The notes below the pieces were generated by a model, which made no database searches, was not told the origin of the DNA, and was given only the letters and a program-made list of their open reading frames with translations. Source: Streptomyces sp. NBC_01463 (lineage in GTDB: Bacteria > Actinomycetota > Actinomycetes > Streptomycetales > Streptomycetaceae). Taken from it: a stretch of 64,000 bases of DNA. Shown in pieces: positions 15,633 to 59,467 of the stretch (positions are counted from its first letter, which is position 1; the number at the start of each line of letters is the position of its first letter). The stretch is from assembly GCA_036227345.1 (NCBI GenBank), contig CP109468.1, positions 8,370,001-8,434,000 on the forward strand, in the 5' to 3' direction. Both the position numbers and the translations under genes were made by a program.

Positions 15633-15821
15633 TCAGAGCGGGTTCGTGCCGCCCTCGCCCTTGGTGGAGACCTGATCGCTTCGTTCCTCCAGCCGGTGCG
15701 CCTTGTCCTTGAGGCGCTGCCGCTCCTGAGGATCGGAGACCCGCTCGGCGGCCTCCTTCATTTCCTGCGCCTTGGCGCGGATACGCTCGGCGCGGCCGCC
15801 GGTTTCGTCCGCAATGCTCAT
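15633..15821 (-). CDS. Small charged helical protein (DUF6381-like)
   Basis: 62 residues, start ATG 15821 with AGGAG five bases upstream. Almost entirely helical and charged (RIRAKAQEMKEAAERVSDPQ, then RLKDKAHRLEERSDQ), likely a coiled coil. Similar small Streptomyces proteins are labelled DUF6381; that match is from memory of the pattern. Function unknown. It converges on the DUF6221 gene. Confidence 0.65.
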   Translation of the reverse strand: MSIADETGGRAERIRAKAQEMKEAAERVSDPQERQRLKDKAHRLEERSDQVSTKGEGGTNPL

Positions 15822-16281
15822 GGTCACTCCTGGGTCTCGGGGGGAGAGCCGACCTCACCAGCGAATCAGCGCACCACCTCAACTGCATCTCGAGCGGTCA
15901 CGCGCCGCTACGGAATACGGTGCGCAACGCCGCGACGGCTCCGGTGCGCACAACGCTCATGCCCCCGGTTCGCCCGCACCTATGCTCTGTGTATCGGGAC
16001 CGCGCGGTCCCGTAGGTCGCGCGGCCGTGGCAGAGCGGCCCATTGCGATCGTCGTGGGGGAGGTCCCCCTCGCGACGACTGACGGGGTGCGGGCGGACCT
16101 GCCCCTGCCTGTCCGCGGGTTCGAATCCCGTCGGCCGCGCGACCGCCCGGCTCCCTGCGCCCCCGGTGCGATCCGCGCCGCCCCTTCTGGCAGGATCGTG
16201 CGCTTGAACGCACAGCCCGCTCACAGGAGTCGATGCTTCCGGCGGGCGAACGAGCACGTACGAACGGGGAACGAGGAACAC
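15822..16281. other. Intergenic region carrying a tRNA-like RNA locus
   Basis: 460 bases between the small helical protein and the lipoprotein. Contains TATGCT (15981-15986, possible -10 without a good -35), a perfect 16-bp palindrome GGGACCGCGCGGTCCC (15996-16011), the tRNA-like element (16015-16144) and the lipoprotein leader. No convincing coding region. Confidence 0.6.
16015..16144 (+). ncRNA. tRNA-like RNA without an anticodon loop
   Basis: The core (16021-16138) has a 7-bp acceptor stem (GCGGCCG/CGGCCGC), U8, a 3-bp D stem 16030-16032/16044-16046 with a GG-containing D loop, and a canonical T arm 16115-16131 with loop TTCGAAT. The acceptor pairing extends without mismatch to 13 bp (16015-16027/16132-16144). 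Where the anticodon arm belongs there is a long hairpin: TCGTCG/CGACGA (16049-16054/16073-16078) topped by GGGGG-AGGT-CCCCC. A long variable-arm-like hairpin follows (16081-16113, inner stem GGGC/GCCC). No 7-base anticodon loop can be drawn. It could be a class II tRNA derivative, a regulatory mimic or a decayed gene. Strand is inferred from the D and T arms. Confidence 0.6.
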
Positions 16282-58210: not shown

Positions 58211-59467
58211 GTGCCGGCATTCACTGGCCTTCGGGCAGTCACACAGATCGCGGGCCCCGCGCTGCCCGTCATCTCCTTCGCGGCGCGCCTGCCCGCAGCG
58301 ATCTGCCCCATCGCCACTCTCCTGATGCTGACCGAGCTGGACAGCATCGGCACCGCGGGAATCGCGGCCGGAATGCTGTGGACCGGCCAGGCCGTGGGCG
58401 GCCCGTTCCTCGGCCGCTACGCCGACCGCCGAGGCCACCGGCCCGTCATCCTGGCAGCCTCCCTCGCGAACGCGGCCGCCCTGGCTCTGTTCGTCGCAGC
58501 GGCGCTCACCGGCACGCCGCTCGTCGTACAAGCCGTGCTCGCCGCGGTCGTCGGTCTCACCGTGCCGCAGATCGGGCCGCTCTCCAGGACACGGTGGGTG
58601 GTGCTGACCGGACCTGCCGACGGGAAGGCCGGCACGGGCACCCGGGAACTGACCCGCCGCGCGCTCTCCTTCGACACCGCAGTCGACGAACTCAGCTTCA
58701 TGGCAGGACCCGCCCTCGCCGGGATGACCGTGGTCCTGATCCACCCCGCGGCCGGACTCGTCCTGGCGGGAGCGGTCATCGCCGTCTTCGGGACCCTCTT
58801 CGCCCTCCACCCCACGGCCCCACGGGGCAGAACCACACAGACCTCCGCACGCGGGAGGCTGCTGCATCCCGCACTGATCGCCGTCTTCGCCATGGCGCTG
58901 CTCCAGGGAATGATCTGGGGAAGCGCCAACGCCGGCACGAGCGCACTCTCCGAACACCTCGGCGACACCGGAATGGCCGGTCTGGTGTGGGGCGCGATGG
59001 CGGTGACCAGCTCACTCATCGGCCTCGCCATGACGATGCGTCCGAGCGCGATGGAGCTGACACTCCAGCTCCGTCTCGCCATCGCCGCGCAGGCGCTCCT
59101 CCTGCTCCCGCTGCTCCTCGTCGACAGCTTCATCGGCGCCACCGCGGCCATCGCAGGTATCGGGTTCGCGGTGGCCCCGCACCTCATCGCGGTGTTCAAC
59201 CTCGGGGAACACATCGCCCCGATGGAGCGCATGGGGGAAGCCATGGCCTTCCTCGGCAGCGGACTCATCATCGGCCAGGGCGTCGCCGCACTGGCGGCAG
59301 GACAGCTGGCCGAGCACTACGGCCACCACAGCGCCTTCCTGCTCACCTGCGCCTCGGGAGCGGCAGCGCTCGTCGTCGCCCTCGTCTGCGTACGCCCCGG
59401 AATCATCGAAACGCACCGCGCCCCCCGCGCGGCGGAGAGCGGACTCGCCGAAGCCTCCGCCGGCTGA
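58211..59467 (+). CDS. MFS exporter (cluster, second)
   Basis: 418 residues, GTG 58211. Different MFS subgroup: PALPVISFAARLPAAICPIATLLM, GRYADRRGHRPVILAASL, and FMAGPALAGMTV. A TTGAAC (58176) and GGATACGAT just before the start suggest a leaderless or near-leaderless second promoter here. Two exporters in tandem are unusual and may handle product and intermediate separately. Confidence 0.88.
   Translation: MPAFTGLRAVTQIAGPALPVISFAARLPAAICPIATLLMLTELDSIGTAGIAAGMLWTGQAVGGPFLGRYADRRGHRPVILAASLANAAALALFVAAALTGTPLVVQAVLAAVVGLTVPQIGPLSRTRWVVLTGPADGKAGTGTRELTRRALSFDTAVDELSFMAGPALAGMTVVLIHPAAGLVLAGAVIAVFGTLFALHPTAPRGRTTQTSARGRLLHPALIAVFAMALLQGMIWGSANAGTSALSEHLGDTGMAGLVWGAMAVTSSLIGLAMTMRPSAMELTLQLRLAIAAQALLLLPLLLVDSFIGATAAIAGIGFAVAPHLIAVFNLGEHIAPMERMGEAMAFLGSGLIIGQGVAALAAGQLAEHYGHHSAFLLTCASGAAALVVALVCVRPGIIETHRAPRAAESGLAEASAG

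Follow-up and report, generated by a model that had tools for sequence, protein, structure and literature searches.

Background

What can an RNA with the shape of a tRNA do once it has no anticodon loop? The question is raised by a locus of Streptomyces sp. NBC_01463, carried by a 64,000-nucleotide stretch of contig CP109468.1 (hereafter the window, to which the coordinates of the locus refer). An earlier note, made from the letters of this stretch, had described tRNA-like arms in the correct order around two odd hairpins and proposed either a noncoding tRNA mimic or a structured leader for the lipoprotein gene downstream. To our knowledge, few bacterial tRNA mimics are known. In the open-access literature, no title or abstract among the matches listed describes this RNA, most subscription papers being outside the scope of that search. 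Through comparative analysis, we define here an RNA family that is real, conserved and not covered by a dedicated Rfam model. It represents tRNA mimicry in a new form, and we discuss its distribution, its association with mobile elements and its potential role.

Architecture of the locus

A structured RNA is encoded at 15995-16144 on the + strand. It opens with a 5′ hairpin and contains an acceptor-type stem together with D and T arms, a long arm standing where a tRNA has its anticodon arm. Its features are listed below, with the proportion of cells paired in relatives and the number of pairs changed on both sides (double-changed).

15981-15986, + strand: -10-like box TATGCT, the TAnnnT motif having a near-fixed spacing across loci
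15995-16012, + strand: 5′ hairpin (helix 1; 96.4% of cells paired, 4/5 pairs double-changed), the palindrome of the earlier note
16015-16027, + strand: 5′ strand of the 13-bp acceptor-type stem, GGTCGCGCGGCCG (helix 2; 98.2% paired, 8/13 pairs double-changed)
16028-16046, + strand: U8 and G9, then the D arm with A14, G15, G18, G19 and A21 (D stem 93.3% paired, 1/4 pairs double-changed)
16049-16078, + strand: arm at the anticodon-arm position, with a 10-bp stem and a 10-nt loop (helix 4; 94.3% paired, 10/10 pairs double-changed)
16061-16066, + strand: kissing strand AGGUCC, within the 10-nt loop of the preceding arm, pairing with 16095-16100
16081-16113, + strand: variable-arm hairpin with an outer 6-bp stem, an internal loop, an inner stem and a 6-nt loop (helices 6 and 7; 91.6% and 95.2% paired, 6/6 and 4/5 pairs double-changed)
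16095-16100, + strand: kissing strand GGACCU in the variable-arm loop, pairing with 16061-16066
16114-16131, + strand: C48 and the T arm with loop UUCGAAU (stem 99.8% paired, 1/5 pairs double-changed)
16132-16144, + strand: 3′ strand of the 13-bp stem, CGGCCGCGCGACC, with no encoded CCA (from the sequence and the covariation of helix 2)

Within these features, tRNA positions 1-7 correspond to the last 7 nt of 16015-16027, the D arm proper covers 16030-16046 (+) and the T arm proper 16115-16131 (loop TTCGAAT in the DNA), while the outermost model pair of helix 1 is unformed in the window copy. Most of the earlier description was confirmed, including the extended pairing of 16015-16027 with 16132-16144, both tRNA arms, the palindrome and the TATGCT box. 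By contrast, the hairpin of 6 plus 5 bp closed by AGGT that it drew at 16049-16078 gives way, by comparison, to a 10-bp stem with a 10-nt loop. This arm occupies the place of the 7-nt anticodon loop, whose absence had been correctly recognized, and no alternative fold with a normal anticodon loop appeared.

The folding energy of the locus is lower than expected by chance (z = -3.7 for 16015-16144 and -4.1 with the 5′ hairpin included). Since the opposite strand folds about equally well (z = -3.9, both strands being better than shuffles), energy alone cannot assign the strand of the RNA. In addition, the minimum-energy fold of the window copy taken alone keeps the 13-bp stem and the T arm and pairs the D-arm region otherwise, so that the tRNA-like core rests on comparison.

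Covariation supports the fold and its strand

Two alignments were used, A1 (24 sequences aligned with MAFFT) and A3 (90 covariance-model matches). In A3, 95.7% of the 4812 pair cells hold and 39 of the 54 pairs change on both sides, counts that lean towards the proposed structure because A3 was fitted to a structure derived from 24 of its own sequences. Double-sided changes are present in each of the eight helices; none of 500 shuffles reached any of five measures, and slid controls paired at 34-55%. In A1, 94.8% of cells are paired and 24 of the 54 pairs are double-changed. The compensatory changes that the earlier note proposed to look for in both odd hairpins are found in every pair of helices 4 and 6 and in four of the five pairs of helix 7, and the loss of stem conservation among homologues, named there as a ground for rejection, did not occur. 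G-U cells outnumber A-C cells in A3 (466 vs 42 of 4812) as in A1 (129 vs 16 of 1293), which identifies the + strand as the RNA and rules out the antisense strand.

Conservation of the RNA also stands out against its surroundings. In four groups of loci sharing a neighbourhood (8, 6, 5 and 4 loci), assembled by eye, the RNA is 85.5, 92.2, 93.4 and 87.3% identical, whereas the flanking 100 bases are 59-64% identical downstream and 53-58% upstream, against 52-54% in shuffles. The upstream 100 bases of the second group (B) are an exception, with 88.6% identity; the fourth (D) is held together by a single neighbour family, and one locus of the third (L115, group C) clustered with its group only under a looser neighbour rule. 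Comparison among relatives demonstrates the fold, the strand and the conservation against decayed flanks, and we regard it as virtually certain that the locus encodes a conserved structured RNA.

A tRNA core without decoding capacity

The nucleotides that build the tertiary core of tRNAs are present. U8, A14, G15, G18, G19, C48, U54, U55, C56 and A58 are invariant in the 90 rows of A3, and, in our numbering, positions 8-11, 13-15, 18, 19, 25, 48, 51-56, 58, 59, 61 and 62 are identical in all of them; A21 is conserved in 87 rows and position 26 is a G in 78. This invariance is inflated by the 46 rows that come from a pattern scan fixing several core letters. In the other 44, counted apart, U8, A14, G15, G18, G19, C48, G53-C56, A58 and C61 are found in 44/44 and A21 in 42/44.

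ARAGORN, which searches for tRNAs and tmRNAs, called nothing in the window and Rfam reported nothing there at gathering thresholds. Under permissive settings, the tRNA model (RF00005) reached 23.7 bits at the locus, below its cut-off of 29; that threshold was passed by two of eight related loci (32.6 and 31.5 bits) and by none of five further loci. A 10-bp arm with a 10-nt kissing loop takes the place of the 7-nt anticodon loop of this family, and none of the Rfam families fits the RNA. The true tRNAs that came closest to our covariance models were of the serine type, for all 17 best-scoring matches retrieved with model R1 and all eight with model R3. Like tRNA-Ser, the RNA has a tRNA core, a D arm and a long variable arm; it differs by the lack of an anticodon loop and of CCA, and by its 13-bp acceptor-type stem, its loop-loop kiss and its 5′ hairpin. 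The noncoding tRNA mimic without anticodon proposed initially is supported by the double-changed pairs in 8/8 helices and by the conserved tRNA core. As a separate observation, ARAGORN called an unusually long tRNA-Arg (tcg, 90 nt) at L045:10815-10904, about 700 bases from another RNA copy.

The two loops of the extra arms are predicted to kiss

The strand AGGUCC (16061-16066) faces GGACCU (16095-16100), and in A3 94.8% of the cells of this helix are paired and five of its six pairs double-changed, although the covariance model behind A3 contained no kissing pairs. One of 500 shuffles reached the five-pair count and none reached the other four measures, including the covariation score; slid controls paired at 36-58%. 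The combinations AGACTC/GGGTCT, GTGCCT/GGGCAC and AGGAAC/GGTCCT substitute for the common AGGTCC/GGACCT. Seven of the 90 rows form just four of the six pairs as aligned, four of these seven rows seeming shifted by one column, and the pair 87-131 fails in 11 cells. On the evidence of these covarying letters, the loop at the anticodon position kisses the loop of the variable arm, a contact that is new relative to the earlier note.

Distribution of the family

When 199 Streptomyces genomes were searched at the DNA level, 43 gave matches at E up to 0.001. By reading of the matches, full-length relatives occur in 23 of the 199, the remainder being partial or short matches and including some ordinary tRNAs (L030). 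Present at full length in a minority of genomes, the RNA is dispensable for the genus. A gapped pattern applied to one genome per species (84,980 species) retrieved 65 stretches, assigned by record title to Streptomyces (58), Yinghuangia (2), Actinacidiphila (2, from one isolate), Embleya (1), Kitasatospora (1) and Microtetraspora (1); the Microtetraspora record carries the same RNA copy as a genome (G076) placed in the genus of the window. In a separate search, four plasmid records matched (one of Embleya and three of Streptomyces). No annotated feature was found at these four sites, in gene tables that hold no RNA genes and with two of the records nearly unannotated. A phage origin was rejected, as blastn against 50,697 phage records gave no match and the exact pattern was absent from viral contigs.

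Among 297 genomes of the family, covariance model R1 matched 28 (29 loci) with at least 65 bits, the next match being at 49.4 bits. Among 394 genomes of the class, screened with stricter filters through which weak matches may escape, five exceeded 125 bits and the rest reached at most 61.6. This was also the highest R1 score outside the family, where the 15 matches retrieved were all tRNA-Ser. Eight of the 13 genomes matched by model R3, in a class search under similarly strict filters, were outside the family, and all eight matches retrieved were again tRNA-Ser. Strong matches fall in Streptomycetaceae, where the RNA occurs on both chromosomes and linear plasmids of Streptomyces and of genera related to it.

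In 15 genomes from two sister families of the same order, model R2 found three loci, all in one family (L226-L228, 62-64 bits), where ARAGORN made no tRNA call; a fourth match retrieved (L229) is a tRNA-Ser. The three loci, mutually similar and counted as one case, have a 9-10-bp acceptor stem, no visible 5′ hairpin, and loops GCACU and AGUGC that are complementary by eye, giving a 5-bp pair that differs from that of the main family. From these traits, they look like distant members of the family.

Putative promoter and genomic neighbourhood

The TAnnnT motif starts 10-13 nt before the start of the RNA model in 82 of 88 loci (two A3 rows without a 5′ end being dropped), including 80 at -12 or -11, whereas shuffles give a mean of 5.4 loci and a control stretch gives 1. 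About 30 nt ahead of this -10 box, there is a patch rich in A. No general terminator was found in the 70 nt downstream (mean z of -0.35, with 7 of 87 loci below -2). Three copies (L058, L152 and L174) have a very strong hairpin directly 3′ of the RNA, as if a terminator had been acquired; none of them has the terminal repeats described in the next section at the usual offset.

The genes next to the RNA, delineated with a simple home-made gene caller, vary from locus to locus. In 82 distinct pattern-matched loci (after merging, and with the window copy included), few neighbourhoods are shared and many are singletons. Under a loose rule, the 50 loci flanked by 2 kb or more in each direction form 38 neighbourhood clusters, of which 32 are single loci, and the 35 loci with 3 kb on each side form 28. 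We prefer the value of 38 for 50 loci to that of 49 clusters for all 82, which includes 32 loci with less than 2 kb on a side. The ORFs found in common among 31 loci overlap the RNA, come from close pairs, or belong to loosely related families (30-50% identity). For 125 nearest-neighbour proteins, a set that excludes fifteen loci of the four neighbourhood groups, no Pfam family occurred in more than four and PADLOC families reached at most two members each. This survey brought up no partner protein. With no neighbour common to most loci, an attachment site or a gene-cluster part was rejected. In the window, the upstream neighbour is a DUF6381 protein gene (15636-15821, - strand), and DNA similar to this interval recurs in other Streptomyces genomes, at several places in some.

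These neighbourhoods bear on the second proposal of the earlier note, a structured leader acting in cis on the gene that follows. In the window, the lipoprotein gene does start about 138 bases 3′ of the RNA on the same strand. However, the gene downstream shares the strand of the RNA in 26 of the 76 loci that have one and is opposite in 50 (it is absent from the stretch in 6), the 50 well-flanked loci fall into 38 clusters, and in another Streptomyces (G018) the match to the lipoprotein-coding region spans coding DNA only. That genome has no RNA match in the DNA search, its best R2 match (46.6 bits) being in the range of ordinary tRNAs. As gene neighbours vary, the RNA is not the leader of the lipoprotein, and a leader function in general appears highly improbable.

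The same data speak to the possibility of a relic, i.e. a decaying pseudo-tRNA, an intron-bearing tRNA or the remnant of an attachment site, which we consider scarcely conceivable. Partial copies truncated at differing points do exist in other Streptomyces (L022, L023, L024, L026 and L027), as a relic would leave, but 39 double-changed pairs are incompatible with decay, no anticodon loop is left, the extra arm carries a covarying kiss, and the lack of a gene common to most neighbourhoods means that there is no common integrase.

Association with ISL3-type MITEs

In Streptomyces sp. Tue 6430, two RNA copies, compared for matches lying no further than 400 bases from the units, are 95% identical over a common 350 bp, where the alignment ends. 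Inverted repeats of about 40 bp form the two ends of this common unit. Both inner terminal repeats are found at 17 of the 82 loci (with up to 7 mismatches in 22 positions) and some part of the repeats at 23; shuffled flanks, 164 in all, gave one inner and two outer hits. The other 59 loci showed none of these repeats. No terminal inverted repeats were found around the window copy, and no target-site duplication was evident by eye in the ends of other loci. At one locus (L205), a two-part ISL3 transposase is flanked by related repeats, the left one being imperfect. Related repeats also bound short elements that carry no RNA, some of them in the genome of the window, where the ISL3-type motif has 12 hits vs 3 for the reversed pattern. 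Facing pairs of the motif (2 mismatches each) occur in that genome at G000:C1:4925-5056, 58341-58474 and 9002073-9002204 and at G000:C2:14431-14565, close to the ends of the chromosome and also on the second contig, with too little room between them to hold the RNA.

In a tree built from the 90 sequences, 13 changes of the repeat label are counted, whereas shuffles give 19.9 (with a minimum of 15). Labelled sequences number 22, including three weak ones with one repeat part only (L146, L154 and L166) and omitting L174 (hit at another offset); they are in one part of the tree that also contains repeat-less copies and excludes the window. The smallest clade holding all 22 has a support of 0.00, and the next node, which adds L057 and L155, a support of 0.97. 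Judging from these repeats, some RNA copies, all of one clade, sit in ISL3-type MITEs, and that of the window does not.

Could the RNA then be a mere cargo, serving the movement or persistence of the MITE with no benefit to the host? The repeats at 17 loci against one hit in 164 shuffled flanks, the 350-bp unit repeated within one genome and the transposase found between related repeats elsewhere all fit this explanation. It is at odds with the 59 repeat-less loci, whose RNAs nevertheless retain the fold, with the restriction of labelled copies to one part of the tree, with the conservation of the RNA in shared neighbourhoods despite decayed flanks, and with the short elements that have the same repeats and no RNA. 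On balance, we find it quite unlikely.

Comparison with known RNA systems

The closest parallel in concept is the bacterial Y RNA YrlA, in which the Ro60-binding stem is said to replace the anticodon stem, leaving no free acceptor end. According to a review, YrlA is 90-150 nt long and combines a stem formed by its 5′ and 3′ ends with a tRNA-like domain; an end-paired stem and tRNA-like D and T arms are features of both RNAs. In the Streptomyces RNA, by contrast, the end pairing belongs to the acceptor stem, and the kiss closes the anticodon arm. If the RNA were a Y RNA of this type, its end-paired stem would hold Ro60/Rsr and its tRNA-like domain would be offered to a protein such as PNPase. 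A match to TROVE, the Ro60 family, does exist in the genome of the window. Nevertheless, TROVE matches, which cover about 60 residues of the family, occur in 12 of the 23 genomes with a full-length RNA and in 83 of the 176 others (Fisher p = 0.66), giving no association with a Ro60/Rsr partner, and TROVE is absent from the top 25 Pfam families of the RNA neighbours. The Rfam YrlA model (RF02553), run on the genome of the window at E up to 10 with 150 of 1143 first-look candidates scored, gave three places, none at this locus; nor was YrlA listed in the permissive Rfam scan of the locus, in which one lower match of the same clan was hidden. We therefore hold a Y RNA to be very unlikely. One other locus of this genome (L243, G000:C1:6134434-6134546) scored 38.4 bits with the YrlA model (gathering threshold 69; E = 2.4e-6), and the TROVE match of the genome, at 8059499, lies apart from it.

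Other tRNA-like RNAs offer more limited parallels. The pseudo-tRNA tRNA-Other of Bacillus cereus, located within a regulatory RNA, is likewise tRNA-like and is said to act outside translation (PMC3399842); it contains a Trp anticodon, whereas the Streptomyces RNA has none. The tmRNA carries the upper half of a tRNA-like structure (PMC3985003); in the window, neither ARAGORN nor Rfam at gathering called a tmRNA.

A probable trans-acting mimic of tRNA

We find it very probable that the RNA acts in trans, as an RNA. The locus would be a noncoding RNA gene that stands alone and has a promoter of its own, as the conserved -10 box suggests, presumably transcribed into a product of about 150 nt. This product would retain a tRNA core of the serine type and have lost decoding, its anticodon arm being sealed as a closed hairpin whose loop kisses that of the variable arm, and its acceptor end being a 13-bp helix without CCA, preceded by the 5′ hairpin. 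Proteins that read the elbow, the variable arm or the acceptor helix of tRNAs could bind such a fold. The RNA may thus present its tRNA elbow and its acceptor-T helix to a protein recognizing tRNA independently of the anticodon, and candidate partners include seryl-tRNA synthetase, RNase P, an elbow-modifying enzyme or a tRNA-cutting nuclease. The earlier note had named EF-Tu, an aminoacyl-tRNA synthetase or RNase P as possible binders. Any single partner, taken by name, is an unlikely guess.

We favour a decoy or scaffold over a substrate, given that a 13-bp helix would be expected to impede the usual processing of the ends; such processing, like charging, would be unlikely for this molecule. 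Taken as a whole, we lean towards a free-standing RNA with a tRNA core and no decoding, which would act in trans through a tRNA-recognizing protein, as a decoy or scaffold more than as a substrate. The part of this proposal that concerns a tRNA decoy or scaffold has about even chances of being right. More speculatively, and with a rather low probability, an RNA derived from tRNA-Ser and closed by the kiss might have been captured by an ISL3-type MITE in one lineage and have spread as a mobile cassette across the chromosomes and linear plasmids of Streptomyces; there, it would shield or divert a tRNA-recognizing enzyme, e.g. a tRNA-cutting nuclease of rivals or phages.

The sequence data support a full tRNA core whose decoding end is sealed by a loop-loop kiss, in a family that ARAGORN did not call at the tested loci and for which Rfam has no model of its own. 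If transcribed, this RNA would provide a direct test of what the tRNA shape can do without an anticodon, as well as an example of a structured RNA as transposon cargo.
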